A stretch of 45,961 nucleotides of DNA from a virus, in the IMG/VR virus record IMGVR_UViG_3300030061_000136, positions 14,656-60,616 of that record; one strand, 5' to 3'. The translations under genes were made by a program, and so were the position numbers. How positions within the stretch are numbered: the stretch's first letter is position 1; each line of letters opens with the position of its first letter. This document shows positions 4,728 through 45,803 of this stretch, one piece after another. The notes under the pieces were generated by a model that was not told where the DNA came from, searched no databases, and saw nothing but the letters and a program-made list of their open reading frames with translations.

Positions 4728-4956
4728 AGAAAAAGAGGTATGGGATATTGCCTATTGGAATCCCTCCGACAATGTGACGGATGAAGAACTACAAAGATTC
4801 ATAGACACAGGGATAGGAACTTCAGAAGAGAATCCAAAGTATTATTCTATCCGACACTTTGTCGAAGCATATAACAAGCAAGACATAAGTGATTTAGGGT
4901 GGCTCTATTGTACACCCCGACACAAAGACGGAGTAGAAAATGAGAAGAAAAAATAG
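4717..4956 (+). CDS. Small acidic hypothetical protein
   Basis: 79 residues, acidic N-terminal two-thirds, basic Lys-rich C-terminus. Good GGAG site 6 bases before ATG. Overlaps both neighbours. No domain recognised. Confidence 0.6.
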   Translation: MRAEEKEVWDIAYWNPSDNVTDEELQRFIDTGIGTSEENPKYYSIRHFVEAYNKQDISDLGWLYCTPRHKDGVENEKKK

Positions 4957-5086
4957 TAAAATGAAGTGGGTGTGGCACCATATCTATACAAATAATTCGA
5001 GAAAATTCGAGAATTTACTTGACAAAGACAAGGATAAATGGTATACAAAACTATGGCAAAAAGTAAAAAACTTCCTAGGTTTGTGA
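4940..5086 (+). CDS. Tiny Trp- and Lys-rich protein (48 aa)
   Basis: Short ORF covering an otherwise empty 80-base interval, overlapping the gene before it and the metallopeptidase start. The product is basic with five Trp (for example MKWVWHHIY and KWYTKLWQKVKNFLGL), and its C-terminus would form an amphipathic helix. No strong Shine-Dalgarno, so coding status is less certain. A candidate membrane-active or host-interacting peptide by composition only. Confidence 0.4.
   Translation: MRRKNSKMKWVWHHIYTNNSRKFENLLDKDKDKWYTKLWQKVKNFLGL
5019..5047 (+). promoter_or_regulatory. Possible internal promoter
   Basis: TTGACA (5019-5024), 17 bases, TATACA (5042-5047). The -35 is perfect and the -10 matches 4 of 6. 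Five bases later comes an in-frame ATG (5053) of the metallopeptidase gene. It may therefore give an internal transcript starting at or near that codon. Confidence 0.4.
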
Positions 5087-8191: not shown

Positions 8192-8400
8192 GAAACATAA
8201 TACTAGACGCAATGCTTAAACATGCACAAGGTCACATAGCAAAACATAAAGCTAACGTAGAAATCTATCTTAGCCATTCAGTAGGTGTGGGCGGTGAACC
8301 CAATGCTGATGTTCTCGAAACTATCGAGAAGGAATTAAATATTGTAGCTATGTATGACGATCAAATTGAGATGCTCAAGAAATATTTTCTTGACAAATAA
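8188..8400 (+). CDS. Small conserved hypothetical protein
   Basis: 70 residues, helical, with ATGA overlap at the nuclease stop and a GGAGG site. The pattern of an N-terminal AMLKHAQGHIAKHKANVEIYL helix, then a Gly-rich turn and a second helix, is familiar from small phage genes next to RecA-like ATPases, but no function is known to me. The -35 of the next promoter lies inside its 3' end. Confidence 0.6.
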   Translation: MRNIILDAMLKHAQGHIAKHKANVEIYLSHSVGVGGEPNADVLETIEKELNIVAMYDDQIEMLKKYFLDK

Positions 8401-8417
8401 TTTTTTTAGTTTATAAT
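8390..8417 (+). promoter_or_regulatory. Near-consensus sigma-70 promoter for replication genes
   Basis: TTGACA (8390-8395), 16-base spacer rich in T, TATAAT (8412-8417). Expected transcript start near 8424, ahead of TAGGAGACC and the ATG at 8444. It would drive the recombination and replication genes independently of the upstream early operon. Confidence 0.85.
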
Positions 8418-15896: not shown

Positions 15897-16862
15897 ATGT
15901 CAGTATTTAAAGGAAGAGAATATTATAAACCATTTGAATATCCGTGGGCATTTGAAGCCTACGATCAACAACAGAAGATGCACTGGTTACCCAGTGAAGT
16001 TCCATTACACGAAGATGTAAATGATTGGAACAAGAAAATGAATGACGCAGAAAAGAATTTGGTTAAACAAATTCTAACATTCTTTACGCAAGGTGATGTA
16101 GATATTGCACAAGCCTATATGGATGTGTATATACCCATGTTCAAAAAACCAGAAGTGCGCATGATGTTATCCGCTATTGCTACATCGGAGGCTAACCATG
16201 CTCACAGTTATTCTTTATTAAATGATACTATAGGTATGGATGATAGAGAGTACAGAGCATTCCAAGAGTATGCCGAGATGGCAGACAAACATAACTATCT
16301 CTGGGAAAGTAAAGGGGGCACGGAAGAACAAAAGATCATAAGGGATATGGCTGTGTTCTCTGCATTTGGTGAAGGCTTACAGTTGTTTGGTTCATTCATT
16401 ATGTTATTAAACTTTCAAAGGTTTGGTAAGATGAAAGGCATGGGGCAGATAGTTGCATGGTCAATACGTGATGAGAATCACCACGTTGAAAACATGATTA
16501 AACTTTTACACACCGTGCTAGATGAGAAGCCACATATCTGGAATGATAAATTTAAGAAGTCACTCTACGATATATGTAGGGATATGGTAACTCTTGAAGA
16601 AAAGTTTATTGACCTGGCATTCGAACAAGGACCAGTTCAAGGATTAACACCACAAGAAGTTAAGAACTATATACACTACATGGCAGACAGAAGATTACTT
16701 CAGCTAGGTTTAAAACCTAACTACGGAGTTAAAGAGAATCCACTTGAGTGGGTGGACTATATTGTTAATGGGCAGGCACACGAAAACTTCTTTGAAACAA
16801 GAGCGACTGAGTATGCAAAGGGAGCAGTTCAAGGAGATTGGAGTGAGGCATTTACCTCTTGA
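15897..16862 (+). CDS. nrdB: Class I ribonucleoside-diphosphate reductase, small subunit
   Basis: 321 residues, normal length. Metal ligands and radical Tyr can be aligned: Asp67 in QGDVD, Glu98/His101 in EANH, Tyr105 seven residues after Glu98, a Glu in FGEGLQLFGSF, and Glu/His in DENHHVEN. The site therefore looks like an intact dinuclear-metal tyrosyl-radical type. AGGGGAGAC precedes ATG, 12 bases after the nrdA stop. Contains one in-gene copy of GGGGGCAC (16314). The -35 of the following promoter begins within the stop region. Confidence 0.93.
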   Translation: MSVFKGREYYKPFEYPWAFEAYDQQQKMHWLPSEVPLHEDVNDWNKKMNDAEKNLVKQILTFFTQGDVDIAQAYMDVYIPMFKKPEVRMMLSAIATSEANHAHSYSLLNDTIGMDDREYRAFQEYAEMADKHNYLWESKGGTEEQKIIRDMAVFSAFGEGLQLFGSFIMLLNFQRFGKMKGMGQIVAWSIRDENHHVENMIKLLHTVLDEKPHIWNDKFKKSLYDICRDMVTLEEKFIDLAFEQGPVQGLTPQEVKNYIHYMADRRLLQLGLKPNYGVKENPLEWVDYIVNGQAHENFFETRATEYAKGAVQGDWSEAFTS

Positions 16863-16887
16863 CAAATCTTATATCATTTGATATAAT
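16859..16887 (+). promoter_or_regulatory. Perfect consensus sigma-70 promoter
   Basis: TTGACA (16859-16864), exactly 17 bases, TATAAT (16882-16887). This is the only fully consensus rightward promoter found in the window. The expected start near 16894 leads into a region without a credible gene that ends in a terminator. Confidence 0.9.
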
Positions 16888-16893
16888 AACACT

Positions 16894-17015
16894 AACAACG
16901 GAGACAGGGGGGCACAAAGAACCTTACTTCTTCTAGATGCAATATTTAGAAACAGTTTGGGGAACCACTTCCACAACCGTACAAAGGGCTGATCTTAGGG
17001 TTAGCCCTTTTCTTT
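16894..17015 (+). ncRNA. Candidate small RNA between consensus promoter and terminator
   Basis: About 120 bases delimited by the consensus promoter and the hairpin/T-rich terminator at 16983-17015. It contains an 8-bp hairpin (TTCTAGAT 16931-16938, loop GCAAT, ATTTAGAA 16944-16951), a short GGAA/TTCC hairpin near 16961-16972, and a G-rich 5' segment with a GGGGGGCAC copy (16907-16915). The only ORF, 34 codons from 16938, lacks a ribosome-binding site and runs through the terminator. A regulatory RNA is the best explanation. An mRNA leader for the gene at 17025 with an attenuator is the alternative. Confidence 0.6.
16983..17015 (+). terminator. Rho-independent terminator
   Basis: AAAGGGCT (16983-16990), 12-base loop, AGCCCTTT (17003-17010), followed by TCTTTT. 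Ends the candidate small RNA. Some read-through may feed the gene at 17025. Confidence 0.75.
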
Positions 17016-17024
17016 TGGAGACAC

Positions 17025-17433: not shown

Positions 17434-18064
17434 GTTCTTCAAACTTATAAAAGAAATTAGTATCATCTCCTGCTGTATACTTAGATTTATTTTCCACACC
17501 ATATTCAATAGTTGAAACCTTATAGTCTGGGAACCTCATCTTCTTTGGGGATAAAGACTTATCATAGAATATCACCCTATTATTAGGCTGAGCAGCGAAG
17601 TATCCGTTATCTAATTGTATAATATTAAAAGACTTATGCTGTGTAGGTACTTCAGAATACCCAATATCTGGTATATTATATTCTGGATGACAACTATCTA
17701 TAGTATATAAATACTCCCCATAATAAAAATTCCCGTTAGGAGCCTTGTATTTGCATTTACCCGACCCTACACTCACCTTTTGTATAACTGAGATGTGGTA
17801 GCTAAAACAATCCCAAAGCTCTAGGTCTTCAAGTTCCATCTCTTCCTTCGTCTCTTTCCAGACAAAAGCCGAGATAGGAAGCTTATCATATAAAGCTCCC
17901 GTTTCATATAAGTAGGTCTCGAAATAAAGTGCACGACCTTGAATAGACTTAGCAGTGATCCAGATTCCTGGTTCATATTCACCGTGCCCCCTTTCAAAAT
18001 CATAGAGATACTCCTTTTTAACAAGGACTTCAACGGGCGGAACATTAGCTACAAGGAATGCCAC
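17426..18064 (-). CDS. Hypothetical protein beside lysozyme
   Basis: 212 residues, GTG start overlapping the lysozyme stop (TAGTG). Soluble, rich in Tyr, Glu and Phe, with Gly-x-Tyr turns (NGNFYYGEYLY, DNGYFAAQPNNRV) suggesting a beta-rich fold. It seems to be a conserved neighbour of lysis genes in related phages by my recollection, but I know no function. Contains a GGGGGCAC copy (17984-17991). It is the last gene of the leftward operon, so it may be a late accessory. Confidence 0.65.
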   Translation of the reverse strand: MAFLVANVPPVEVLVKKEYLYDFERGHGEYEPGIWITAKSIQGRALYFETYLYETGALYDKLPISAFVWKETKEEMELEDLELWDCFSYHISVIQKVSVGSGKCKYKAPNGNFYYGEYLYTIDSCHPEYNIPDIGYSEVPTQHKSFNIIQLDNGYFAAQPNNRVIFYDKSLSPKKMRFPDYKVSTIEYGVENKSKYTAGDDTNFFYKFEEQS

Positions 18065-18510
18065 TAGTGTGCTAGTTGTCTAATGATATAAGATAGTTTC
18101 TCTGCACGCATCGGGGTTTGTTTTGCCCAACGCGAGTCTAGCATCTCATCTGCTGCTAGGTGATAGGACTTGATAGATAAGTTTGCTAAAAACTTTTTAA
18201 ACTTACTGACACCTCCAACACCTAGCTGAAATACCATCTCTATAAGAACTTCTTTAACACATTCTGGATGCTCGTCAAGATTGATATCAGAATTGTCAGC
18301 GACCAACTCAGCAGAGTTACAGGCGCTTTCAAAATCATCTTCAAAAACGGCTTCCAATTCTTCGATACTATATTCAATACCTTCTTCATAGTTATCCTCC
18401 GTTGTAACGAGGTGACCATATCCTATGGTAGCGAATCCTAAGCTATCCTTATATACGATATTTCTAAATCCCTCGTGTTCTTTTATTCTCTCCTTAAGAC
18501 TTTCAAACAT
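18064..18510 (-). CDS. T4-type lysozyme (GH24 muramidase), endolysin
   Basis: 148 residues. The catalytic triad has T4 lysozyme spacing: Glu13, Asp22 and Thr28 in the HEGFRNIVYKDSLGFATIGYGH region. LIEMVFQLG-GG-SKFKK and the C-terminal SRWAKQTPMRAEKL motif also match GH24. No signal peptide, so it needs a holin to reach the wall, and one is encoded just upstream (18812-19219). TAGGAGG precedes ATG. It hydrolyses peptidoglycan for host lysis. Confidence 0.92.
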   Translation of the reverse strand: MFESLKERIKEHEGFRNIVYKDSLGFATIGYGHLVTTEDNYEEGIEYSIEELEAVFEDDFESACNSAELVADNSDINLDEHPECVKEVLIEMVFQLGVGGVSKFKKFLANLSIKSYHLAADEMLDSRWAKQTPMRAEKLSYIIRQLAH

Positions 18511-19965: not shown

Positions 19966-20164
19966 ATAACGCTTTTACAAATCCTCTCATTACTACCTTC
20001 TGCTTAGGACCGCCTTCGCCTCGCACTTGTGATAGTATAGCTTTCTTTTTTCTCTCTGCTTTGGCTCTAGCTTTAGAACCTGGAGTAGAAAACTTTTTCT
20101 TCTGGGGCTTCTTTTTAGTACCAGATTTTATTTGTTGGTACATCTGAGCCCTAGTTACTGGCAT
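19940..20164 (-). CDS. Small highly basic protein
   Basis: 74 residues, begins MPVTRAQMYQQIKSGTKKKP, then Lys/Arg-rich with KARAKAERKKKAILSQV and a C-terminal helix MRGFVKALYEKFKTKK. The TAATG-type overlap with the upstream gene indicates coupling. Function unknown. Confidence 0.65.
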   Translation of the reverse strand: MPVTRAQMYQQIKSGTKKKPQKKKFSTPGSKARAKAERKKKAILSQVRGEGGPKQKVVMRGFVKALYEKFKTKK

Positions 20165-20667
20165 TACTTTTTCTTTTTATTATTTAAATATTCTTTTAAA
20201 GTATCAAAGCCAGCAGCTTTTACATCATCCATAGTTACTGTACTATAAGATTTACCTTTGTAAGTAAAAGTAGCATCTTTACCTTTTTCTTTTCTAGCTT
20301 TTTTAAATGCTTCATTAAAAGACATTTCTTTTTTAGCACCAGGTTTCTCAATAGTCTTGCCTCCACCTTTTGCTGAATCAAATTGTGGTGCTTTATTTTT
20401 TGGACCAGAAACATTCTTACCTTGCTGAGTAGATTTATTTTTTTGTTGATTCTTCTTAGCAATATCTGCTTTACTTCCGCCCTTAGCTTTACTTGGGTTG
20501 GTGTTTTTAGATTTGTTTTTATTTTGATTACTCTTAGCTATATCAGCTTTGCTTGGTCCTCCGCCTTTTGCTTTACTAGAATTAGTGCTAGTAGACTTAG
20601 GAGGCTTAGGCTTTGAATTGCCTGCTGTGTTAGCCGTTCTATTTCTTGGATTATAATATTTGGACAT
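20164..20667 (-). CDS. Lys/Ser/Gly-rich low-complexity protein with internal repeat
   Basis: 167 residues. The N-terminal 95 residues are low-complexity and contain two copies of a ~24-residue unit (SKAKGGGPSKADIAKSNQNK and SKAKGGSKADIAKKNQQKNK). The C-terminal 60 residues look folded (EMSFNEAFKKARKEKGKD, then TFTYKGKSYSTVT), with a short strand-helix structure that recurs in phage proteins. Very basic overall. GGAAGGTACAA precedes ATG. Possibly a DNA-condensing virion protein; unproven. Confidence 0.7.
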   Translation of the reverse strand: MSKYYNPRNRTANTAGNSKPKPPKSTSTNSSKAKGGGPSKADIAKSNQNKNKSKNTNPSKAKGGSKADIAKKNQQKNKSTQQGKNVSGPKNKAPQFDSAKGGGKTIEKPGAKKEMSFNEAFKKARKEKGKDATFTYKGKSYSTVTMDDVKAAGFDTLKEYLNNKKKK

Positions 20668-20678
20668 TTGTACCTTCC

Positions 20679-20786
20679 TTATTTTTTGGAAGATTCTTCA
20701 GACTCAGAGGACTCTTCCACTTTAACCGCATCGCCACCTACTTTAACAACAGGGGCTGTCATTACTATTGCATCTGTGTTGATCAT
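20679..20786 (-). CDS. Tiny acidic peptide (35 aa), first gene of lysis/basic operon
   Basis: Reads MINTDAIVMTAPVVKVGGDA then an acidic Ser/Glu tail ending SSKK. No Shine-Dalgarno, but the ATG lies exactly 6 bases after a perfect TATAAT, so its mRNA would begin at the start codon (leaderless). It is the only acidic member among basic neighbours. Confidence 0.5.
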   Translation of the reverse strand: MINTDAIVMTAPVVKVGGDAVKVEESSESEESSKK

Positions 20787-20792
20787 TTGATT

Positions 20793-20821
20793 ATTATATC
20801 ACAACACAATTTGCTTGACAA
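20793..20821 (-). promoter_or_regulatory. Leftward promoter of lysis/basic-protein operon
   Basis: On the minus strand: TTGTCA (20816-20821), 17-base spacer, TATAAT (20793-20798), then 6 bases and ATG at 20786. The -35 overlaps, by five bases, the -35 of the rightward promoter of the phosphoesterase gene. Confidence 0.8.
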
Positions 20822-20843
20822 TAGGTAAAATTAATGGTAATAT
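20815..20843 (+). promoter_or_regulatory. Rightward promoter of HTH-phosphoesterase gene
   Basis: TTGACA (20815-20820), 17-base spacer, TAATAT (20838-20843). The transcript would carry the leader with CAGGAGAATATC before ATG 20866. It shares its -35 region with the opposing leftward promoter, so RNA polymerase probably cannot occupy both at once. Confidence 0.6.
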
Positions 20844-20865
20844 ACCACAATTACAGGAGAATATC

Positions 20866-22104
20866 ATGGGTAAAACAACAGCAAAAATAATATTAATTGA
20901 TGCATTGAATGCAGTAATTAATAACAAAGGTAACAAAGCCGCAGCTTCTAGAGAGCTAGGTATACCACGAACTACACTACTAGAGAGAATAGAACAAGCA
21001 CAACTACAGGGTATCAAACCCACAGTGGTGCCCCCCGATGCTGAAGCAGCATTAATAGAACAACAGTATGAACATGACTCAGAGATTCGGGAGCTTAAAA
21101 AGAAAGTAGAAGTATTAGCCAAAGAAAATTTGGCGCATCAAAAATTAAAAGATAGTCTTATAAAAGCTGAGACACATGTAGCCAAGCCGCCAAAATGGTT
21201 GACTAAAAATACACCAGCAAAAGGTGCGCCAGGTGTACCTACTATATTCTTATCTGACTTTCACTGGGGTGAAGTTGTAGATGAGCAAGCGGTTAATGGT
21301 ATTAATAAATATGATAGAGAGATAGCATTAAAGAGATTTAAGAACGTAGTAGAAACTACTATTGACTTATGTACGAATCACATGGTCAATCCTAAATATC
21401 CAGGATTGGTCTGTGCTTTGGGTGGCGATATGATATCTGGCGATATCCATGATGAGCTAGCAGAGAACAATGATGGCACTAATATAGAGCATGTCTTAGA
21501 TCTGTTAGATAATATGACATGGGCATTGGAAAGATTTGCTAAAGTTTTCGGTAAAGTATTTGTACCTTGTACCTATGGTAATCACTCCAGAACTTATAAG
21601 CAATATCGCCACAAACAAGCCGCGAAAACTAACTACGATTGGATGCTATATAATCTATTAGCTAGACATTTTAAAAATGACAAGCGCATACAGTTCCAAA
21701 TACCTACAGGCTTTGATACAGTATACAAAGTCTATGGTGTTAACTACTTACTGACACATGGAGATCGTCTCGGTGTGGCAGGGGGCACGGGAATTGTGGG
21801 TATGCTTGGACCGATAGCCCGTGGTGTGCAGAAGATTAAACAAGAATACCACAATAGAAATAAGACTATTGACTACGTATTACTAGGGCACTACCACCAG
21901 TATATATCTTTAAAAGGTACTATTGTTAATGGATCTACTAAAGGATATGACGAGTATGCTTACTCAAATAGATTTACATCAGAGCGACCACAACAAGCGC
22001 TATGGTTTACACACCCAGAGTATGGGGTAACATTCCAAGTTCCTGTAGTAGTTGATGAGCCGAAAGGTTCTAAGTCTAAAGAGTGGGTTAGTTGGCTGTG
22101 TTAA
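20866..22104 (+). CDS. Fis-type HTH fused to calcineurin-like metallophosphoesterase
   Basis: 412 residues from the ATG after CAGGAG. Residues 8-42 form a Fis/HTH_8-like helix-turn-helix (KAAASRELGIPRTTLLERI). A coiled coil (70-105) links it to a metallophosphoesterase domain with all motifs: Asp131-x-His133, GGD (Asp188), GNH (Asn239, His240), THGD (His298) and GHYH (His342, His344). Such proteins hydrolyse phosphoesters, often nucleic acid or nucleotides. The DNA-binding domain suggests action at specific DNA or autoregulation at its own divergent promoter. It is the only rightward gene in the leftward half, and its 3' end overlaps the giant gene by 17 bases. Confidence 0.85.
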   Translation: MGKTTAKIILIDALNAVINNKGNKAAASRELGIPRTTLLERIEQAQLQGIKPTVVPPDAEAALIEQQYEHDSEIRELKKKVEVLAKENLAHQKLKDSLIKAETHVAKPPKWLTKNTPAKGAPGVPTIFLSDFHWGEVVDEQAVNGINKYDREIALKRFKNVVETTIDLCTNHMVNPKYPGLVCALGGDMISGDIHDELAENNDGTNIEHVLDLLDNMTWALERFAKVFGKVFVPCTYGNHSRTYKQYRHKQAAKTNYDWMLYNLLARHFKNDKRIQFQIPTGFDTVYKVYGVNYLLTHGDRLGVAGGTGIVGMLGPIARGVQKIKQEYHNRNKTIDYVLLGHYHQYISLKGTIVNGSTKGYDEYAYSNRFTSERPQQALWFTHPEYGVTFQVPVVVDEPKGSKSKEWVSWLC

Positions 22105-25100
22105 AATCGTAAGGAACATTTAAGTTTGCAGCAGCTTCTACATTATTAAGTATTGCTTTTTTAGGAGATGTCAGTAGTCTATAATCTTTTAGTAAATCTT
22201 TTAAAGCCTCTCGGGATAGTCTATTAGTGTCAATAATTATTTGACCACCTATATCTTGAGAGGCGTTGTGTTTAAATAAATCTTGTAAAATTTTATATAA
22301 TTTTAATTGTCCTTCTCTTTGTTCTGCAAAACTTTTATTAACCATACCACTGTATATTGTTTTATACGCATCGGTAACCCTAGCATTGAATCTACTTTGT
22401 AATAAAGAATTACTTCCAGCATTTAATTTTTCCAATCTTAATAATTCTCTTTCTTTAGAAACTTTAGTAGGACTAAAACCTAGTGCTTGTAAGAAGGCAT
22501 CATATACAGTAGCATCATCTGTTAAAACTGTACCATATCTACTTTCAACTCTACCATCTGCAGCTACGTCAAGAGCTTTCATATAGTTAGTTAAAAATGT
22601 AGGGGTCACAGCGTAAGCAAACTCTTGTAAAGGAAACTCTCCTGTTCTATTATAAGCACCAAAAAAGTTTCTAGAGTTTTGGAATATTATAGCACCTGGT
22701 GCTCCTAAAAATTCCTCAGCTCTTGCGCCTGTAGGGAATCCCATCATTCCTATGAGAGCACGTAGTTGCGCAGATCCAGGAACATTACCAAAAGATAATC
22801 TTCTTTGTACGTCTATGTTAGCTAATGCATTGAATATACCATTCTCAAAAAATTCTGCAAGTCTAGGTCCGCTTACTTCGTTTAACATTTTTCTAAACTC
22901 TGCTCTTGAATCACCGTCTATTCCCGAAACACTTTTACGCATTAGATCTCTTAACCAAGCCACTTCATCCATACCAGGTAATCCTAACAATCCACCAGTT
23001 ATAGCTATCATTATTAATATCTTAGACAAAGCAACCTTACCTGCTGCACCATTTCGTGTAGCTAGTCTAGCCATTAAACTAAACATCTGACTTATATAAG
23101 TTTGGAATAAGAAAAATACAGAACCCCAACCTCTCATGTATTTAGGTCTATTTATTTTACCATAAACACCAAAAGTTTCTTCAATCATTTGAGTAGCCAC
23201 CATTCTAGGTGTAGCCACACCATTGTTTCTTTTCAAAGCTGATTGGAAATCAGCATCACCTTTGAAAAAGTTTACAGCGTTTTCCATAGCATCAGTTTTT
23301 TGCATCATTCTATGTGTAGCAATGTAAGCAGTCAATCTTGCTACTGTTTCCATTGTATTAAAAATACCACCAATAACTGTATTTTCAAATGTTCTTATAT
23401 TTCTTTGCAGTATTTGATTTCTACTAACAGCACCACGACCTTGAGGTATACCAGCTTCATGCATCGCCATACCTTGTTTTATTACACCTGAAAATACATC
23501 AGCAATGGCATCATCTTTTACGTCATTTGGTAATTTATCAAAATCTATAAATACATCTTCATATCTTCTACCACCATAATTTAACATTTTCATAACATCT
23601 TTAAATGCTCTAGTTAATTCAAATGCAGCGGACTGTCTCTTACCAGATATGGTACTTAATATAGGACCACTAAACTGCACGACACTCATTAACTGTAGTA
23701 AAGCTGAAGATACGTTACCTCCTAGGTAATACCAGAAACCTAATCTTCTTAAACCTGCTAGCTCATGCTTAGGATCTTGCACATATTCCCACCATTCTTT
23801 CGAAGCTTTTCGTAAAGTAGCGTCTGGATTTGTATCCGCCTTTTGAGTATTATTAAATGCTTCGGCAATGCTAGGATTAAATCTATTACCTGCTGCAAAA
23901 CTACTGGCGGCTATACCATATTGAGTTAATGATCTTGTAAAGTCTGTGCTAAATCCTGGAACACCACCTTGTTGCTTACGAGGTGTTACAAAAACATTAA
24001 ACCCACCAAGCTTACCATCTTTCATATTTGCGCCTTTTTCTAAAATATTATCTATTTCTTTTCTTACTTCTTTAAATATCGCTTTGTTGGTATCAGATAA
24101 CATACCTGATGCAAAATCTATAGTAGCTAAATCTGCTTGCACATTAGCACGTAATTCTTGTATGTCCACTTCTTTAGTTTCAGATATTGTCACATCTGGG
24201 TTGTTACGATACTTAGCTTCCAACGAAGCTCTTACATCTTTTTCTTCATCTAAAGTAGTTATAGAATACTTTCGCTTTTCAAACATTCTATATTCAATAA
24301 CTTTGCCGTCTTTGTCTTTTACTACAATATAATGACTACCATGTCTTTGCAGAGGAACGTAGTCTGTCTTCTTAAAGTCATCATACTTCTTAAGCTCGGC
24401 AGTTAAGGCAAGTAATCCTGCCCCAGGTGCCCCCTCTTCATCGGGTTTGCCTAATATTGTAGCTATTTCAGAATTTAATATAGTAGCTCGTTCCGCAGTG
24501 ATACCTTGGTTAGCTAAAAATTCTGGGTTGTCAGCAATAACTTCTTGTAAATTTTGTACAGCTGTAGTTAAACGAGCTATATCTTCATAAGTTAAATTTT
24601 CATAATCTTTATCAGTTAATTCTGAAATAGATTTAGTACCATCTAAAAATATTTTTTCATCTAAAGCAATGCCCATGTTTATTCCAGCATTGCCTGTTAT
24701 AAAACTTATTGCTTCATCAAGTTTGTTCTTTGATACTTCGTTTCCTAATAATCCTCTAACAATTTCTAAATGCATAAGTTGCACTGCTTCCATTGCACTT
24801 TCATAAGCATCAGCCACTTCACCATCTAATATTACAACATCACCAGCTTTTACTGTACTATCTGCGCCATCACCATCACGCTCAGCAATAAAAACAATTT
24901 GAGTTTCATTTTCTTTCTTTCTGTATCTACCTGGAACTTGTTGTGATATTTCCATAGCTTTGGTTAATAAACCTGCGGCAGTTGGATTACGCATAACTTT
25001 TAAATATGTTTGTAATTTACTTAAAAATTCACTTTGTAATTGTCTAGTCTTTTGATCTCTTAAATGAACTGCAGTATATAGTCTTTCAAATATTGGATAC

Positions 25101-28100
25101 TTCTTTGCCCATATTCTTGCATGAGAAAATATTCTACCAAGAGTACCCAAACCTTTTTCACTAGTTACACCACGCGCCTCTTCGTTAGCTTCTGACTTAA
25201 TATCATTCTGCATTTCCCTAAATTCTTTTCTCAGGGTTTGTCTATTTCCTGGTATATACGCATCTATATCTGGAGACGAAGGTTCGTCAATATATTCTAA
25301 ACTGTTTTTATAATTAGATTGACTTATAGGGGCATCAGATAAACTACCGAAAGCTAATGTAGCTTGTGTTTCCATTTTTGCTTTACCATATTGTTTAGCT
25401 AATATACTGTTATTTAAACGTATATTATTTTGTTGCAACCTTTTATATTCTGCAACTCTATCTGCATACATACCTTGGTCTATTTGATTGAATATCTCAT
25501 TGCCTGTAGTAAATCCTAATCCTCTCATAGCATTACCAAATGCCATCAAGTAAGCTTTCATTCTTTCAAAGACCTGAGCCAGTAAACCTTTAGCAGCGTA
25601 TTTGTTCGCCATGTAATCTGCAAAAGCAAATGTTATACCTTCTTCTATATATAACTCTTCTGAAGCATTTGGTTGACCAGCATAAGTTTCTTTGATATTA
25701 TATTTTTTTACCCAGACTTTTTTAGAATAATCTTTTAACATCTTCATTTCTTTGTCTGTAAAGAAACCACTTTGGAACATAGCATGCATAGCTTCATGTC
25801 TTAAAGTAGCCATCTGTGAGTTCATAGTAGTTTTTAATCCACCGTATTCACCTTTAGGACTATTTAATACTGATATTATTTGAGGCTTCGTCATGTTTAT
25901 AGCTTCTGTTATAACATCGCGATGTACTGTAAACTTACCTTTGGCTCTAGAATTATCTAACCATCTATTAACAATACTTAAATTTACATATGATAAACCT
26001 AATCTGTCTAACTCATTACGTAAAGCCATATAAATTCGTGGTAAACCTTTTGTAAATTCTTTTGTGTAACCAGGATTAACCATACTCATCACAGCTACGT
26101 CTATACTAAATGGATTATATTTATAATCATCTCTAAATATAGGACCAAATTTTGCGTCTGTGTCATGAATAAATCCTACAACACCGATCTCTCCTTTATC
26201 AAATACTCTAGGATTATAAGAATCTACTTGATCTTCTGGAAGATCGTCTAGCTTTCTCATAGCTTCATTTTCATATACTGTATTAGGATTTCTAAGTACT
26301 GCGTCTCTTATTTCTTTGAAGCTATCACCATCTGCAAGTTTTCTGTTTCTATACATCTTACCTTTTTCTGTTACTTTAATCAGAACAGGAATAGGTTTTT
26401 GAGGATTTAAAGCGCCAGCCCAATTAGCCCTGCCTCTGCCTTCATGGCTTAATACACTAACTAAAGGGCGTTTGCCATCTTGTCTGTCTACTAGTAATTC
26501 TAGGTAAGGAGGAGTTATACCATTATCACTTTCTCTAGCAAAAGCAATTTGTCTTTTCAATTGTCTTGCCATTGTTAAATCAGGTTCTTGTAAAGCTAAT
26601 TTATTAAATGTTCCAGGCATTATATACATAACAGCTAATTCTGAATTATTAGCTGGTTTATTGCCAGGAAAACCTCCATCCATATTCCAGAAAGTGTTGC
26701 TTATATTACCTAAGAAAGTTTGATTTACTCTGGCGCTAAGCATGTTAGCATTTATAAGTCTTTGCTTTTCACTAATTTGTTTTGTCTTAGCATCAGGATC
26801 AGCTTCCCATACTTCTACCACTTTAGTCAAAGCAGTTTCTGGTGTACCTTGATACATAGCAGCAATGCCTTTTCTATTAGGAAATGACTGATGTTTTATT
26901 CTATTTAATTGATCACGTGTTAATGGCTTGTAACCAAAAGAACTATATAAAACATTAAAGTCACGCAATTCTTTTTGAGCAGCAGATATTCTATTTCGGA
27001 AATAGCTTATTTGTTGCGCACGATCTTCTAATGAAATACCTTTTCTATTTATTAAACCCTCTATAGCTTTTTCGTATCCTGTGATTGCGGCTGGCGTGCC
27101 CCCTGCACCTATACTACTAGCTAACTTCTCCATTCTATATCTTCTGTTAATAGCAGGCTCATACATGACATTACTAGAAGCTTCGTTTAATATATCTCTA
27201 GCCTCTACAATATCTTGACGTTGTTTGTCTGATAGTTTTTTAGTTCTTAAATCATCACCTATTTTAGATAATTGACCAGCTATTTTTTCATCTGAATTAT
27301 TTACAATCTCTTCTTGACTGAGAGGGGGCACCGCGGGTGTAACACCGACCTGTTCTTTACCAACCCTAGTAGTTTTATTTTCTACATTGTTTTCTAATAT
27401 ATCATCTAGTAAAGCTCTGCCAACTGTCTTACCTGTGCCTCTTTCTGTAGCAGTATTGTTTAATATCTCATTTATTTTTTGTGCGGTGTATATAGATTTT
27501 CTACCACCTCTAGGAACTTCTGGAGTAAAAGTGCCGTCTGTTGTTTCTTGTAAATAACCTAACTCACCTAGTCTTATTGTTTCTTCTGGTGATATATAGT
27601 TTTGGGAATCTTGACTTTCTGCTTCTATTAACAATGCTCTAGGTCCTGTGCTTTCTAGCATATCAATAGCATTGTCTGTATAGCCTCTACTTTTTAAAAC
27701 TTTAATAGCTTTTTGTCTTTGCTTTTGTGTTAAAGGTTTTACATTTATTTGTTCGAAACCAAGTTTATCAGATATAGGGGTGTCATCAATAACTGCCCCT
27801 GTTTCAGGATTTAAACCTTTTTCTTTTTTAGTCTTAACAGATTTCTTTATAGGATTTAATTGACCAATATTATTAAAGTCTACTTCTTCAAAAGTATTAC
27901 CTGCACCTGGTACAGTATTTTTTAATAATAACGTTTTCTTACCACCTACATTGTATACACCAGCAATTTTATATACAGGTGGTATAGGATTACCATCTTT
28001 ATCTAATACAGGTTTTCCCTTTCTATCTAAAGTTTCTCCATAACCAGTTCTTGTAAAAGTAAAATCTTTATAATCATCACCAAACTTTGCTTTGACTTCA

Positions 28101-29329
28101 TTGTCATCTACAACATTTTTTTGCTCTCCTGATGCTCCTAGATCTACATTCTTAATATCTTTTATCTGAGATCTTGTAGCCACACCACCTATAATACCAA
28201 AAGGACCACCACCTGCAGCACCTGCTGCAGCAGATTCACCTACTTGTTTCCAGAAGTTTTTATCTGTATATAAGTCAGCTAAAGAAGCTTTAATGCTTTG
28301 ATCTTTATACATAGCTCCTTCAATAGCACCAGCACTTGATGTAATTATTTCTTGCGAACCTTCAGCCACAGCCTCACCTAATGATGTTTTACCAATAGAC
28401 TTAGCAATGATTGATTTTGTAGATTGATTTATAGCTTTGTTAACAGCATCTACTCCACCTTTTCCACCCATATCTTTTAACAATTTTCCAACGTTATAAC
28501 CTGCACCAAAAAGTCTTTCAGCCGCTGCGTATGGTAAACCTGCAGCTAAAGATAGACCAGCATGCACGTCATTAAAATCAGTAGCCTCTAGTTGTGCTAT
28601 TCTAGAATCACCAACACCCATACCATAAGCCATACCTACACCAAGAGTTGGATTAATAATACTAGCTGCAAATATTGGAATTGTAGTGACAAGACCTTGT
28701 CCTACGTTATAAGTTAACCATTTATAAAAATCTTTAAATCTAGTTTCAGAACCCATTATCTCTTCAATGGATGTGCTAAATGGTATTATCTCACCATCAT
28801 CTGTTTCGATGTATTGCTTGGCTTGACCTTCTAATTGGTATCTTTGTATGGCATCATTAGTAGCTTTTTCTAAACCTTCTAATCCGACTAGATCAGCTAT
28901 CGTTCCGAGTGCCCCCGCTCCTATAGTCTTAAGACCATGCCAGCCTCCTTTGAGACCTTTCATAAAAGAAGTATCGTTTAAGTCATCTGGATTGTTGTAT
29001 CGTTCTGCACCAACACCATATCTATAGATAAAGCCTTGATCATAAAAACGTTTTTCTAATTCTGGACTTTTTAAATAGCTGCGTATCTCGTCATCAGTAA
29101 AATCAAAAGGAACTGCTACTTGGACAGGACTACCATTGTCCTCGTCTATTTTAACATATTTTACTTTTTGAGATTGAGATTGAGAAGTTGTTCTTACAGG
29201 ATCTCCTGTAAGTTCCATTTGAGAAAGTTGAGTGGCTAAAGATGGGGCAGCAAATTTTTCTGCAGAATCAATTATAGATTGTATACGTGCTTCAGTAGGT
29301 GCTTTATATTCTATTTTATCTTCTGCCAT
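22088..29329 (-). CDS. Giant virion/ejection protein (2413 aa) with zincin motif and PLxRFG-like segment
   Basis: 2413 residues, the largest gene. Seen: a hydrophobic Gly/Ala-rich region (about 200-245, LVTTIPIFAASIINPTLG), a Gly-rich stretch near 370-385, the HEAMH metallopeptidase signature (about 1177-1181), and VPLQRHGSHYIVV (about 1657), which resembles the PLxRFG motif of giant phage/bacterial polyvalent proteins. A further hydrophobic span lies near 2100-2120 (KILIMIAITGGLLGLPG). Length, membrane-like spans and position before the tail genes fit an internal protein ejected with the DNA that may carry a protease into the host. No clear Shine-Dalgarno. Contains four GGGGGCAC copies. Confidence 0.75.
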   Translation of the reverse strand: MAEDKIEYKAPTEARIQSIIDSAEKFAAPSLATQLSQMELTGDPVRTTSQSQSQKVKYVKIDEDNGSPVQVAVPFDFTDDEIRSYLKSPELEKRFYDQGFIYRYGVGAERYNNPDDLNDTSFMKGLKGGWHGLKTIGAGALGTIADLVGLEGLEKATNDAIQRYQLEGQAKQYIETDDGEIIPFSTSIEEIMGSETRFKDFYKWLTYNVGQGLVTTIPIFAASIINPTLGVGMAYGMGVGDSRIAQLEATDFNDVHAGLSLAAGLPYAAAERLFGAGYNVGKLLKDMGGKGGVDAVNKAINQSTKSIIAKSIGKTSLGEAVAEGSQEIITSSAGAIEGAMYKDQSIKASLADLYTDKNFWKQVGESAAAGAAGGGPFGIIGGVATRSQIKDIKNVDLGASGEQKNVVDDNEVKAKFGDDYKDFTFTRTGYGETLDRKGKPVLDKDGNPIPPVYKIAGVYNVGGKKTLLLKNTVPGAGNTFEEVDFNNIGQLNPIKKSVKTKKEKGLNPETGAVIDDTPISDKLGFEQINVKPLTQKQRQKAIKVLKSRGYTDNAIDMLESTGPRALLIEAESQDSQNYISPEETIRLGELGYLQETTDGTFTPEVPRGGRKSIYTAQKINEILNNTATERGTGKTVGRALLDDILENNVENKTTRVGKEQVGVTPAVPPLSQEEIVNNSDEKIAGQLSKIGDDLRTKKLSDKQRQDIVEARDILNEASSNVMYEPAINRRYRMEKLASSIGAGGTPAAITGYEKAIEGLINRKGISLEDRAQQISYFRNRISAAQKELRDFNVLYSSFGYKPLTRDQLNRIKHQSFPNRKGIAAMYQGTPETALTKVVEVWEADPDAKTKQISEKQRLINANMLSARVNQTFLGNISNTFWNMDGGFPGNKPANNSELAVMYIMPGTFNKLALQEPDLTMARQLKRQIAFARESDNGITPPYLELLVDRQDGKRPLVSVLSHEGRGRANWAGALNPQKPIPVLIKVTEKGKMYRNRKLADGDSFKEIRDAVLRNPNTVYENEAMRKLDDLPEDQVDSYNPRVFDKGEIGVVGFIHDTDAKFGPIFRDDYKYNPFSIDVAVMSMVNPGYTKEFTKGLPRIYMALRNELDRLGLSYVNLSIVNRWLDNSRAKGKFTVHRDVITEAINMTKPQIISVLNSPKGEYGGLKTTMNSQMATLRHEAMHAMFQSGFFTDKEMKMLKDYSKKVWVKKYNIKETYAGQPNASEELYIEEGITFAFADYMANKYAAKGLLAQVFERMKAYLMAFGNAMRGLGFTTGNEIFNQIDQGMYADRVAEYKRLQQNNIRLNNSILAKQYGKAKMETQATLAFGSLSDAPISQSNYKNSLEYIDEPSSPDIDAYIPGNRQTLRKEFREMQNDIKSEANEEARGVTSEKGLGTLGRIFSHARIWAKKYPIFERLYTAVHLRDQKTRQLQSEFLSKLQTYLKVMRNPTAAGLLTKAMEISQQVPGRYRKKENETQIVFIAERDGDGADSTVKAGDVVILDGEVADAYESAMEAVQLMHLEIVRGLLGNEVSKNKLDEAISFITGNAGINMGIALDEKIFLDGTKSISELTDKDYENLTYEDIARLTTAVQNLQEVIADNPEFLANQGITAERATILNSEIATILGKPDEEGAPGAGLLALTAELKKYDDFKKTDYVPLQRHGSHYIVVKDKDGKVIEYRMFEKRKYSITTLDEEKDVRASLEAKYRNNPDVTISETKEVDIQELRANVQADLATIDFASGMLSDTNKAIFKEVRKEIDNILEKGANMKDGKLGGFNVFVTPRKQQGGVPGFSTDFTRSLTQYGIAASSFAAGNRFNPSIAEAFNNTQKADTNPDATLRKASKEWWEYVQDPKHELAGLRRLGFWYYLGGNVSSALLQLMSVVQFSGPILSTISGKRQSAAFELTRAFKDVMKMLNYGGRRYEDVFIDFDKLPNDVKDDAIADVFSGVIKQGMAMHEAGIPQGRGAVSRNQILQRNIRTFENTVIGGIFNTMETVARLTAYIATHRMMQKTDAMENAVNFFKGDADFQSALKRNNGVATPRMVATQMIEETFGVYGKINRPKYMRGWGSVFFLFQTYISQMFSLMARLATRNGAAGKVALSKILIMIAITGGLLGLPGMDEVAWLRDLMRKSVSGIDGDSRAEFRKMLNEVSGPRLAEFFENGIFNALANIDVQRRLSFGNVPGSAQLRALIGMMGFPTGARAEEFLGAPGAIIFQNSRNFFGAYNRTGEFPLQEFAYAVTPTFLTNYMKALDVAADGRVESRYGTVLTDDATVYDAFLQALGFSPTKVSKERELLRLEKLNAGSNSLLQSRFNARVTDAYKTIYSGMVNKSFAEQREGQLKLYKILQDLFKHNASQDIGGQIIIDTNRLSREALKDLLKDYRLLTSPKKAILNNVEAAANLNVPYDFNTAN

Positions 29330-29370
29330 AATTTTTTGTTACACTTGCGTGTATTCAAGAGTTAAACTCT

Positions 29371-30351
29371 TTACTTGGTATCGTACAAAGGAGAGTTTTG
29401 AGTACCATCTATTGTTACAGTACCGCCTCCTTGCAAGCCACCACCACCTTGCGCAGCATTAAGTGCTGCTTGATCGATTGGGTTTCCAAATTGTGGAATA
29501 CCGAACTTATCTAAAATCAGAGCGTTTTGTAAACCCGCAAGATCTGTATAGCCTTCCTTCTTTTTACCTTCAAGAATCATATCAAGTTTGTTAGATAATA
29601 TTGATGCAAATGCTTTACTATCTAGTGGTATACCTTGTGCTGCTGCTTCTGCAATAGCTGCATCTTTTGCTAATTTTTGATCGTCTGTTGTCATTTGCGA
29701 TTGCTTGTATTCAATCTCAGTTAGCTGCACAGCCATATCTAATTCATCTAATCTTTCTTGTCTAGCTCTATCGTATTCTTTTTCTTGCTTCGCTACTTCT
29801 GCTGCTTGGTTAGCTTTCATTTCATCATTGTATGCTTCGATAGCACCACCAAGACCTTCGCCTTTTTCTATAGCTCTGCCTGCTTTAATTAAAGCATCAC
29901 CATCTAATTCAACACCATCAAGAAAACTAAACAAACCTTTTGGTCTGCCTTCTTCATCTTCTTCCTCATCATCCATGTATGCAGAACTTGGGATAGTCAT
30001 ACCTGTAGCTGGCATTGTTGGTCTATCATCATCATCCACATATGCGGCACCTGCTTGATATCCTGAACCTGGTATTGTTGGTCTATCAGGAGTCTCTTCT
30101 TCTGTCCTTACAGGAATTGTTAGATCTAAACCTGTGCCTTTACCACCAGGGGTCATTAAACCTAATGGATCAAATCCTGTACCAGTTGCTCCTGGGTAAG
30201 TAATTTTACCACCGTACTTTCCACCTGGTTCTAATTCACTTAGTAAAATAGGACCAATACCGCTTCCCGTCATAGCTAATCTTTGTCCTGGTGATAAATT
30301 TTGTGCGTATAACTGTGGATAAAGTTTTTGATGATATGATGATTTTGCCAT
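29371..30351 (-). CDS. Putative structural/ejection protein
   Basis: 326 residues. Gly/Pro-rich N-terminal half (for example KGTGLDLTIPVRTEEETPDR), an acidic patch (DDEEEDEEGR near 127-137), then a long helix-rich Lys/Gln/Ala region and a Gly-rich C-terminus. Lies in the ejection-protein cluster between the giant protein and the tail nozzle gene, with AGGAG before ATG. Likely virion-internal; no family recognised. Confidence 0.6.
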   Translation of the reverse strand: MAKSSYHQKLYPQLYAQNLSPGQRLAMTGSGIGPILLSELEPGGKYGGKITYPGATGTGFDPLGLMTPGGKGTGLDLTIPVRTEEETPDRPTIPGSGYQAGAAYVDDDDRPTMPATGMTIPSSAYMDDEEEDEEGRPKGLFSFLDGVELDGDALIKAGRAIEKGEGLGGAIEAYNDEMKANQAAEVAKQEKEYDRARQERLDELDMAVQLTEIEYKQSQMTTDDQKLAKDAAIAEAAAQGIPLDSKAFASILSNKLDMILEGKKKEGYTDLAGLQNALILDKFGIPQFGNPIDQAALNAAQGGGGLQGGGTVTIDGTQNSPLYDTK

Positions 30352-30359
30352 ATTAACTC

Positions 30360-31235
30360 CTATGCAAACGGTTGGAAACCTAAGTTTGCCGCTACTCCTA
30401 ATCCTTGAATACCAAGACCCATTGCTTGTGAGAATAAGCTTGGTTGTTGTACTGCTGGACCTGTGTATTGTCTGGTCTCACCTGTTGGAACTCCTCTTAA
30501 AATATCTGAGTAGAATCCTAATTGTTGTTTTGGATAATCTCTTTCTTGCATAAATGTAGAGTATCCTAAGTCGAGAGCTTGTTGATCCATTCCTCTCTGT
30601 AACCCACCTAATCCCATTTGCTGTTGGATATCTGCTTGACCCGATTGTTGTTGAGCAGCAGCTGTTGTAGACATACCTAAAGCTGATTGTAATTGAGATT
30701 GTCTGTCTTGTTGTGCTGCTGATAAAGCAGTGTTATATGCATCAGCTTGTGCTTTTGCATATAGGTCACCTAAACCTTGTTGTAAATTTCTTTGACTTTC
30801 TGCCTCTAATATAGCTTGACGTGAACCACCAAATGCTCCAGCACTTGCGGCTTGAGCTGCTATGCCTTGATCACTTATTTGATTTTGTCTTCTTAATTCT
30901 CTGGCTGCAATGTCTGCTACGTTTTTGTTGTAGTCAGTCATGTAGTCACCTACACTTGTCAATGCGGGTGCCCCCGCTGCGGTCGCTGCTGTGTATGCTT
31001 GACCTTGTTGCGTTTGTCCAATGCCTCGTTGTGCTTGTGCTTGTTTGATTGCTTGCTCTTCCATACTACTTAAGCCAGCAAGCCTAGGTCCTGTGTATGG
31101 TATAAAATCTTCTTTTGCTACATCACCTGCAGTTGCTACTAAAGACTCAGCAGCTTTTTCCATGTACTCTGGAAGTCTTATTTGGGTAGTAGAATCTTGT
31201 CCTGCTTGTTTAGTTCCGAATAAAAAATCTAACAT
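30360..31235 (-). CDS. Ala/Gln-rich ejection-type tail protein
   Basis: 291 residues. The centre (about 75-215) is a long Ala/Gln-rich helical region (AAGAPALTS, ASAGAFGGSRQAILEAESQR). The ends are Gly-rich (FSQAMGLGIQGLGVAANLG). The GAFGGSRQA pattern is familiar from internal/ejection proteins of marine podoviruses and SU10-like phages. Probably part of the trans-envelope conduit together with its neighbours. Confidence 0.65.
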   Translation of the reverse strand: MLDFLFGTKQAGQDSTTQIRLPEYMEKAAESLVATAGDVAKEDFIPYTGPRLAGLSSMEEQAIKQAQAQRGIGQTQQGQAYTAATAAGAPALTSVGDYMTDYNKNVADIAARELRRQNQISDQGIAAQAASAGAFGGSRQAILEAESQRNLQQGLGDLYAKAQADAYNTALSAAQQDRQSQLQSALGMSTTAAAQQQSGQADIQQQMGLGGLQRGMDQQALDLGYSTFMQERDYPKQQLGFYSDILRGVPTGETRQYTGPAVQQPSLFSQAMGLGIQGLGVAANLGFQPFA

Positions 31236-32842
31236 TATGCTAATCCTTTGTTAAATAATACTGGTCTACCTATAAAACCTTCATCTTCTTTTTCTCTAGC
31301 TTCTGCTAAAGCTTCTTGAAAGTTCTGTAATAACGGTCCATCTGATCCTTGATATGCCCTTGCTATTATACTATCGTAATCCATAGGTTGTTGTATTTTT
31401 CTGCGATAAGAAAAATATGGTAAATCTTCTTCTGGTTTAGGTTTTAAATCTCCTCCATCTGGCATTGACGGAACCATACTATCACCACCGCCTCCACCTT
31501 TTTTAGGATTCATAACACGATCAATAGCTCCAGAAACTTGTGGAGTTAAAGCCGCTTTTCCAATTGTAGCGCCTTTGCCAAATTCACCTGTGTTTAAATT
31601 GAATCCTATACCCTGTGTAGCTGGATCAAAAAATGATTGATTGAGTCCTGCGTAATCAAACATCTTATCTTGCCCATACATTGCTCTTGCAGCACCTGGG
31701 TCCATACCTAAACCACCAATACTACCTGATCCAGATAATATTGCATTGACTCTGTCTTGAAATTCTGATTCACTTTCAGAAGGTTGTTTTTCTAATTCTT
31801 CACCACCACCTAATGATTTAATAATTTTCATAAAAGGTAAATTTTCTAGCATACTTCCTGCACCTCTAGCTATGTCACCTATAAATTCTTTTCCTGTTGG
31901 AGGAGCGGTTCTTAAAACTTTTTTAACAGGATCAAATACTACACCACGACCATACTTTTCAATAAGACCCAAAGCTTCATCATAATTTTCTTGTGAGATA
32001 ATTCCTGCATTTAATAATTGTTTAGCGTCATTACCACCTAGTCTAATACTTCCTAATCTTTTTTGATCAACACCAGACATTATCATTTTGGATAACTCAC
32101 CCATGCTATAACCTGTTCGTCTACCTTCAGGGCTCTTAGCAAATTTAAGTTGATCTATTAATTGATTTTTTTGGTAATTAGTTAAGTTAGGGTCATTTTT
32201 TACTTCCGCAATTTTTGCATCTACCTCAGCTTGAATTGCTTTAACTTCATCATTACCACCAAATAATTTTTCTAAAAAGCTTTTTTCTTCTTTTTTATCT
32301 TTATCTTGTTTTGGCGCGGATGGTTCTGTGATTCGCGGAGCCATCTTGACACCAGTTTCTTTTTCTTTAGCAGCCATGGCATCTTCTAAATCTCTGAGCA
32401 CATCTGTATTTACTTTATTCTTATTACCACCGCCTCCACCGCCACCGCTAGGTTTTGGTCGACTGTATGATCCTGTAAAATCTTTATTTCTTGTCGTATT
32501 TCCACGACCAGGAGGAGCAAATGATGGAATGCCTGTTACAGGTTGTGGCTCTCCTGAACCACCTAGTAGTTTAAGTATGCCTGCTTCTTGTGGGTTAATA
32601 TAAGCTAATGATTCACCTTCTGGTGCCATAGCATTAACTGTTTGTGCCGCACCTCTTAATTCGTTTTGTACATTAGATAATGCCATATTATAAAAATCTT
32701 TTTGTGGTTCTTCTGTAGGGGGTAGTTGAAATATGCCTCGCTGTTTTCTAGATTCTTTTGCTAGAAGTGCTGTAATTCCTGGCGAAGCTTGACCTGACCT
32801 AACCACCATATCACCTGATTGAACTGGACCTGCAACTTGCAT
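31235..32842 (-). CDS. Putative internal virion protein
   Basis: 535 residues. Low-complexity Pro/Gly N-terminal third with a poly-Gly run near 134-141, then a charged helical middle and a C-terminus rich in Arg/Tyr (PYFSYRRKIQQPMDYDSIIA). Belongs to the ejection cluster. No Shine-Dalgarno: the ATG sits 6 bases after a perfect TATAAT, suggesting a leaderless transcript. Confidence 0.6.
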   Translation of the reverse strand: MQVAGPVQSGDMVVRSGQASPGITALLAKESRKQRGIFQLPPTEEPQKDFYNMALSNVQNELRGAAQTVNAMAPEGESLAYINPQEAGILKLLGGSGEPQPVTGIPSFAPPGRGNTTRNKDFTGSYSRPKPSGGGGGGGNKNKVNTDVLRDLEDAMAAKEKETGVKMAPRITEPSAPKQDKDKKEEKSFLEKLFGGNDEVKAIQAEVDAKIAEVKNDPNLTNYQKNQLIDQLKFAKSPEGRRTGYSMGELSKMIMSGVDQKRLGSIRLGGNDAKQLLNAGIISQENYDEALGLIEKYGRGVVFDPVKKVLRTAPPTGKEFIGDIARGAGSMLENLPFMKIIKSLGGGEELEKQPSESESEFQDRVNAILSGSGSIGGLGMDPGAARAMYGQDKMFDYAGLNQSFFDPATQGIGFNLNTGEFGKGATIGKAALTPQVSGAIDRVMNPKKGGGGGDSMVPSMPDGGDLKPKPEEDLPYFSYRRKIQQPMDYDSIIARAYQGSDGPLLQNFQEALAEAREKEDEGFIGRPVLFNKGLA

Positions 32843-32848
32843 TTAAAT

Positions 32849-32877
32849 ATTATACCTTTTTTGTACCTTTCTGACAA
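32849..32877 (-). promoter_or_regulatory. Leftward promoter of ejection-protein genes
   Basis: Minus strand: TTGTCA (32872-32877), 17 bases, TATAAT (32849-32854), 6 bases, ATG 32842. Architecture is identical to the 20793-20821 promoter. A GGGGGGCAC motif on the plus strand (32878-32886) abuts the -35 directly. Confidence 0.8.
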
Positions 32878-32894
32878 GGGGGGCACGCGCAAAA

Positions 32895-39072: not shown

Positions 39073-39566
39073 TATGCGCTTACCTCAAAAATTGTCATTG
39101 ATGTTGCTCTTGTATAATCTGTATTATCATAAACTAAAAACTGTCCTCCAGCATCTTCTTTAAATTGTAATTTTACCGCCACTGAACTTGTAGTGTTAGG
39201 ATTCCAATATGCGTAGAAAGAAACAAATCCTTTAACATTATCTGAATTTGCAGGGAATTTTTCTTCAATGAATCTAGTAGCTCGTGTTGTAGTTGGCGAA
39301 ATTATTTGAAGATAACCATTAGGTGTTGTAGTTGAGCTTAGTCCATGTAATCTGTAATTAGCATTTACCACTACATATAAATAGTTAGATGTTGAACTTG
39401 GAGTGTATGTTGTTGATATAACATCAGCATAAGTGCCAGAAGTTGTAACAGCACCAGTACCTAAAACATTATCTTGTATACCTATAAGTTTACCAAAACC
39501 AGATGCTTTAGCTATTGTGACTGCACTGTCCGCTATTCCCGCTGTTGGTATTGTTGTTACTGCCAT
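39072..39566 (-). CDS. Small tail-fibre protein, type A head
   Basis: 164 residues with a short N-terminus (AVTTIPTAGIADSAVTIAKA), a GFGKLIGIQ linker, then the type A head (STTYTPSSTSNYLYVVVNANY ... FLVYDNTDYTRA) ending SMTIFEVSA. Shares linker and head with 39566 and 41199 products. Confidence 0.68.
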   Translation of the reverse strand: MAVTTIPTAGIADSAVTIAKASGFGKLIGIQDNVLGTGAVTTSGTYADVISTTYTPSSTSNYLYVVVNANYRLHGLSSTTTPNGYLQIISPTTTRATRFIEEKFPANSDNVKGFVSFYAYWNPNTTSSVAVKLQFKEDAGGQFLVYDNTDYTRATSMTIFEVSA

Positions 39567-45089: not shown

Positions 45090-45803
45090 TTAGTACCCGC
45101 GAATCTTAGGTTGTATATAAAAACTTGCTCTTTCTCTATCCTCTTCTTTTGCGAATTCCCATTCTTCATTGTATATACCTTTTAATTCTGCTCTTCTTGT
45201 TGCATCAACTTTGTCTGGATTTTTATTTGCTAATTCAAAAGCTAACCCACTAATTAATGCAGGTAGGTATCTTCTAGGTATATCTGGATTTTGTGTATAA
45301 GTTTCAGATACATCTTGTGGGTATCTGATTGTCCAACAATGCAATCTATAATAAGTTTGATCTGGAACTGGGAATAAATAAACCTTGTGATTAGCTACAC
45401 CTGAACTATCGTACTGGCTGTTTCTTTCAACAGCAAATTGTACAGGTTTACCGCTAGTTGTTTTGTTTGGATAGTTAAGATATTCTGATAAACTAATTCT
45501 TTCACAATCTGTATCTGTTACAGGTGATGAATTAGTATCTCGCACTGCAGCATCTAATATATCTAAATACTGATTAGCTGCTAGATCTACAGTAGCTGAA
45601 TCTTTAGTAAGAGTTAAAGTAGTTAAGTCTAATGTAAATAGGTTAACGCCTTCATTAACCCATTTAGTTAATAATAAATTTAATGAACGTCTTGCGGTTA
45701 CAAGATCATAACCCGACTTTACTTCAATGCCTACACGCTCGTAAGCTTCTTGAATTATGTCAGATACATCAAGATTAAATGTGTATGTACCAGAGGTAGC
45801 CAT
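45090..45803 (-). CDS. Head-tail adaptor / tail tube protein (T7 gp11-like)
   Basis: 237 residues. IIQEAYERVGIEVKSGYDLV, then RRSLNLLLTKWVNEGVNLFT, a beta region (HKVYLFPVPDQTYYRLHCWT) and RRYLPALISGLAFELANKNP match the conserved tail-tube/adaptor protein of podoviruses (T7 gp11-type role). The start region is AGGGGGTGACATATG. Assembles under the portal. Confidence 0.78.
   Translation of the reverse strand: MATSGTYTFNLDVSDIIQEAYERVGIEVKSGYDLVTARRSLNLLLTKWVNEGVNLFTLDLTTLTLTKDSATVDLAANQYLDILDAAVRDTNSSPVTDTDCERISLSEYLNYPNKTTSGKPVQFAVERNSQYDSSGVANHKVYLFPVPDQTYYRLHCWTIRYPQDVSETYTQNPDIPRRYLPALISGLAFELANKNPDKVDATRRAELKGIYNEEWEFAKEEDRERASFYIQPKIRGY

Follow-up and report, generated by a model that had tools for sequence, protein, structure and literature searches.

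Three gene blocks in a clade of uncultured, mostly marine phages open with a promoter placed almost directly against the first ATG. We consider it highly probable that the three sites are sigma70-type promoters giving mRNAs with 0–3-nt leaders for terminase, virion/ejection and lysozyme-containing units, and start-codon-first translation of the first gene of each block is likely. In the window (the whole 45,961-nucleotide stretch analysed, positions 14656–60616 of a 60,616-base virus record), the sequence-only reading had reported two leftward copies of TTGTCA-17-TATAAT-6-ATG at 20821–20793 (−) and 32877–32849 (−), and both are present exactly there. Promoter 1 reads TTGTCA-AGCAAATTGTGTTGTGA-TATAAT-AATCAA-ATG (20821–20784 (−), ATG at 20786) and promoter 2 TTGTCA-GAAAGGTACAAAAAAGG-TATAAT-ATTTAA-ATG (32877–32840 (−), ATG at 32842). 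A third site, TTGTCA-17-TATAAT-8-ATG at L014:12456 (−), lies 2.2 kb left of the window (window coordinate −2199) and precedes TerS, the first gene of a leftward module divergent from rightward genes; the terminase large subunit adjoins TerS, which opens the packaging and head genes. Just to the left of window position 35 the record has 10 consecutive N, most likely marking a scaffold gap or masking.

TerS is a better third case than the weaker promoter that had been suggested at 5019–5047 with an ATG at 5053, which has the hexamer TATACA and falls within a conserved overlapping coding frame. We rejected 5019–5047 as a promoter because it forms the last part of a 48-aa frame conserved at the protein level (Table 1). 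The unit opened at 20786 encodes small basic proteins followed by a lysozyme and a ferredoxin-like family, as identified by domain searches, and with these domains its assignment as a replication module, based on synteny with DSL-LC04, was dropped. We infer the term 'late' for the terminase, virion/ejection and lysozyme-containing units from gene content alone.

Table 1 Coordinates of promoter elements and genes at the three sites and at the loci compared with them (window positions, except for TerS)
Feature	Position	Strand	Remarks
Overlapping 48-aa frame (...NLLDKDKDKWYTKLWQKVK...)	4940..5086	+	Protein conserved in G013, G032
Leadered promoter TTGACA-16-TATAAT, gene 8444	8390..8417	+	Predicted leader ~20 nt, SD AGGAGA
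Lysozyme (PF00959), further down the 20786 leftward unit	18064..18510	−	Domain search
167-aa basic protein, second gene of the 20786 unit	20164..20667	−	Has SD (AGGAAGGT)
35-aa ORF MINTDAIVMTAPVVKVGGDAVKVEESSESEESSKK	20679..20786	−	Predicted leaderless; opens its unit
−10 TATAAT, promoter 1	20793..20798	−	6 bases ahead of ATG
−35 TTGTCA, promoter 1	20816..20821	−	Kept in 12 unique upstreams
Leadered promoter TTGACA-17-TAATAT, gene 20866	20815..20843	+	Predicted leader ~20 nt, SD CAGGAGA
2413-aa protein gene	22088–29329	−	Downstream of 32842 gene
DNA-ejection-protein-like gene	30360–31235	−	phrog_4287, E 3.8e-18; downstream of 32842 gene
535-aa protein gene	31235..32842	−	Predicted leaderless; N-terminus kept from residue 1
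−10 TATAAT, promoter 2	32849..32854	−	6 bases ahead of ATG
−35 TTGTCA, promoter 2	32872..32877	−	Conserved GTGCCCCCC ahead at 32878–32886
TerS gene, 153 aa	L014:11995–12456	−	Pfam Terminase_2, E 5.6e-22

We compared the frequency of these layouts with chance expectation. The window contains three matches to TTGTCA-N15..19-TATAAT where shuffles predict 0.14, the third match, at 39092 (+), having a 15-base spacer and lying inside a leftward gene. With the full layout defined as a promoter matching at least 11 of 12 consensus positions and followed 5–7 bases past the −10 by the ATG of an ORF no shorter than 30 aa, two instances were seen against 0.03 expected per genome (first-order Markov), in addition to the gap-8 case outside the window. 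Likewise, exact TATAAT stands 6–8 bases ahead of 3 of 82 gene starts, where 0.22 would be expected over gaps 5–9. An AT-rich genome (37% GC, 65 TATAAT across both strands) might align such hexamers with ATG codons by chance, with no promoters involved, and in a general promoter scan weaker promoter-like matches were no commoner than in shuffles and hence carry no weight. However, the expectation of 0.03 per genome and the retention of the layout and its 17-base spacer in 43 of 43 clade upstreams despite sequence drift leave chance alignment with hardly any probability.

To survey the clade, relatives were drawn from viral contigs and the loci searched by tblastn without requiring the promoter layout, clade TerS spanning about 59–100% protein identity. 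In this unconditional search the layout was present in all unique clade upstreams of TerS (21/21), the 32842 gene (10/10) and the 35-aa ORF (12/12), and across these 43 distinct sequences the −10 is always 6–9 bases from the ATG start, with no usable Shine–Dalgarno (SD) sequence. Eighteen more distant TerS genes, from other phages and 31–61% identical over short stretches, lack the layout, which counts against the leaderless reading. Gaps and spacers were tabulated from upstreams preselected for a −10 motif, whereas the 21/21, 10/10 and 12/12 counts were not preselected; in that table the gap is 6 in 10/10 32842 genes, 6–7 at the 35-aa ORF and 6–9 at TerS, and the spacer is 17 in every upstream but one, which has 18. 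ATG is found at every clade TerS start in a listing made without the layout condition, and the alignments show it for the 32842 gene and the 35-aa ORF as well. The −35 varies (TTGTCA, TTGTTA, TTGTTT, TTGTAT, TTGCAT) and the spacer sequence drifts, as in GAAAGGTACAAAAAAGG versus GAAACGCTGAAAGAAGG at the 32842 gene, while TTG and the fixed distances stay constant. Taking hexamers 16–18 bases apart as sigma70-type, we thus find TTGTnn/TTGCnn-17-TATAAT, with 18 in one case.

SD use separates the three starts from most others, as had been noted for 20786 and 32842. A strong SD (−5 kcal/mol or better) precedes 63 of 82 gene starts, compared with a best duplex of −3.5 at 20786, −4.0 at 32842 (from a weak AAGG 12 bases ahead of the ATG) and 0 at TerS. 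From our reading of the listing, the remaining SD-less starts touch or overlap the gene before them, the exceptions being the three promoter sites and 29329. By contrast, the TTGACA promoters of genes 8444 and 20866 predict leaders whose length of ~20 nt and AGGAGA or CAGGAGA motif are kept in G007, G013 and G032, and the −35 of the latter overlaps, on the opposite strand, that of promoter 1. The earlier proposal of leaderless transcripts is therefore supported, as a prediction, by a gap that is conserved although spacers and proteins have diverged, by SD absence, by the selection acting on the 35-aa ORF, by the missing codon-12 ATG in relatives of the 32842 gene and by these leadered contrasts.

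Another rightward element, at 16859–17016 (+), comprises a perfect TTGACA-17-TATAAT and then ~120 nt with an intrinsic terminator at their end. The element folds well (z −3.68) and is kept in G013, and partly in G007 with an altered terminator stem; no Rfam family matched at threshold, and we list it as a candidate small RNA.

The ATGs next to the promoters also appear to be the true starts. The 35-aa ORF at 20786 encodes a genuine protein and is under purifying selection, with pooled pS of 0.690 and pN of 0.078 in its conserved block (pN/pS ~0.11; seven sequences). Were translation to begin further downstream, the promoter-side ATGs would be coincidental and the RNAs would have short ordinary leaders, and an SD-like AGGTG 2–5 bases ahead of codons 12–13 of the 32842 gene fits such an arrangement. 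Yet codon 12, an internal ATG here, is ACA in relatives L005 and L006, the N-terminal residues are kept from residue 1, the internal ATG of the 35-aa ORF is missing in G007 and G032, and no SD lies ahead of the next in-gene start of TerS; downstream starts are thus very unlikely. The codon-12 ACA, N-terminal conservation and selection on the 35-aa ORF make the promoter-adjacent ATGs the best-supported starts.

Whether the leader is exactly zero may differ between sites. By the usual numbering, which is established promoter geometry, the −10 element occupies −12 to −7; this would place the first transcribed base at the A of the ATG when the gap is 6. RNA polymerase would start at this A, or 1–3 bases ahead for gaps of 7–9, yielding an mRNA with a 0–3-nt leader and without an SD. 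Two bases ahead of the TerS ATG stands an A in most relatives, making a 2-nt leader the likely prediction; TerS sites mostly predict 2–3 nt, not zero, which counts against a strictly leaderless reading. In E. coli, leaderless initiation favours AUG as its start codon. Ribosomes, probably 70S, would bind the 5′-terminal AUG directly, an entry route described in a review of leaderless translation (PMC9031893). Read-through RNA, lacking an SD before 32842, would be poorly translated there, so the first gene of each unit would depend on its own promoter. Use of the sites would fall late in infection. A further point against the leaderless reading is that the first 40 nt of the 32842 mRNA fold at −7.1 kcal/mol, stabler than the mean of −3.3 for other genes.

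Upstream of TerS, an inverted repeat, CCCTTGT-CAAT-ACAAGGG, overlaps the −35, and TTGT...ACAA-type repeats recur in relatives as a possible regulator site. A hairpin also follows TTACAGGAGAC at about 12510–12545 (−) of L014, and likewise upstream of TerS in L020–L063, both arms of its stem differing from one relative to another (CCCGCGAAGCGGG, CCCTCGGGGAGAGGG, GCATAGCGCGGGGCTATGC).

The promoters could be real but start transcription elsewhere, or longer RNAs could carry the genes, with SD-less, S1-dependent initiation then occurring on A/U-rich leaders. A transcript starting further upstream of 32842 would take in the weak AAGG, which counts against the leaderless reading, and gene 29329, with no SD, promoter or abutting upstream stop, makes SD-less initiation on a long RNA seem possible. 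Against this, 20786 and TerS have divergent upstream neighbours, from which ordinary read-through RNA would not be expected, and the gap holds at 6–9 where the bases separating −10 and ATG differ (gap 7 in L011/G007; gaps 6–9 through TerS indels). We judge this alternative unlikely and favour transcripts that begin at or within three bases of the ATG. Ahead of the 29329 ATG, two short hairpins lie at 29329–29375 (−), also in G032; one has a GCAA or GAAA loop (TACAC-GNAA-GTGTA) here and in G032.

The usual example of a leaderless phage mRNA is that of lambda cI from PRM, which is made from a sigma70 promoter, starts at the AUG and has no SD. The cI mRNA is named as leaderless in the same review (PMC9031893). 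The present sites resemble it in being phage genes with a sigma70 promoter, an AUG at the (here predicted) transcript start and no SD, but cI is a single repressor gene of a temperate phage, whereas here three clade-conserved promoters head late-type units. In Lactococcus cremoris and mycobacteria such transcripts begin at the start codon or very close to it, as predicted for these phage genes; there, however, leaderless mRNAs are experimentally mapped and host-wide, whereas the other genes of this phage are mostly SD-led. No leaders of 4–14 nt were identified in L. cremoris (PMC10986495), which agrees with the split between 0–3 and ~20 nt predicted here. For giant phage AR9, early and late promoters were mapped by dRNA-seq, and its leaders of 26–491 nt differ from the 0–3 nt predicted here, although the paper calls phage transcripts 'often leaderless', citing an E. 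coli ribosome paper (PMC5312081). Leaderless mRNAs are thus already known; for a clade-conserved set at late-type blocks we found no report in the open-access papers searched, and one may exist elsewhere.

Related layouts appear beyond the clade. We scanned viral sequences for CCCTTGT-N19-TATAAT-N6..8-ATG, and the matches listed include all three sites of the clade together with unrelated phages. Among these matches, the layout stands before genes for a T4-like DNA polymerase (835 aa) and primase (345 aa), whose families were recognised by tblastn to annotated phages. The gp43 cases (L110, L111, L112, L154, L156) and gp61 cases (L107, L145, L148, L161, L174) among the matches listed all come from metagenomic phages, with a gap of 6/7 and no SD. 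These contigs share CCCTTGT-N19-TATAAT-6/7-ATG with our clade but belong to unrelated phages and concern replication genes, and the layout is absent in the three relatives checked, which are cultured or single-cell (AG-345-O18, S-CREM2, S-PM2). For listed dereplicated ORFs of at least 60 aa, an SD is present in 3% at gap 6–8 versus 38% at gap 26–28. Because the raw match numbers of the two scans are lower bounds, we set only their SD fractions side by side. Such ORFs are no less frequent in the control (0.59 versus 0.49, among the matches listed), so it is the SD difference, not ORF length, that is informative. The layout further opens a 69-aa family (MLQNLEIPDPFATFV...) in L102, L103, L119, L126, L151, L162, L170 and L171, which had no match in the phage collection. 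Two cultured pelagiphages each provide a single case: TTGACT-17-TAAAAC-6-ATG at HTVC027P gp35 (L098:638) and TTGATA-17-TATAAT-6-ATG in HTVC023P (L018:15687). HTVC023P is a distant relative that grows on Pelagibacter HTCC1062, and its site, at record position 45693, precedes a tail gene.

The division between SD-led genes behind TTGACA promoters and leaderless ones behind TTGTnn promoters of late modules might constitute an early/late switch at the level of translation, encoded by promoter placement, in which host ribosomes or initiation factors altered in the course of infection would move translation from one class to the other; we regard this extension as unlikely. Pfam recognised no sigma factor or transcription regulator among ~20 small rightward proteins. 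A search of the DNA polymerase against bacterial genomes found no host-genome relative, and the promoter pattern in bacterial genomes fell in scattered taxa among the matches listed, which is uninformative on host.

If the predicted transcripts are made, leaderless initiation can serve the essential structural and packaging genes of a phage that keeps SD-led genes beside them. The divergent pair sharing a common −35 region at 20815–20821 would offer a natural side-by-side comparison of a leaderless and a leadered gene. The sites would also serve as a warning to gene callers that rely on SD sequences, which should keep these starts and the 35-aa gene.
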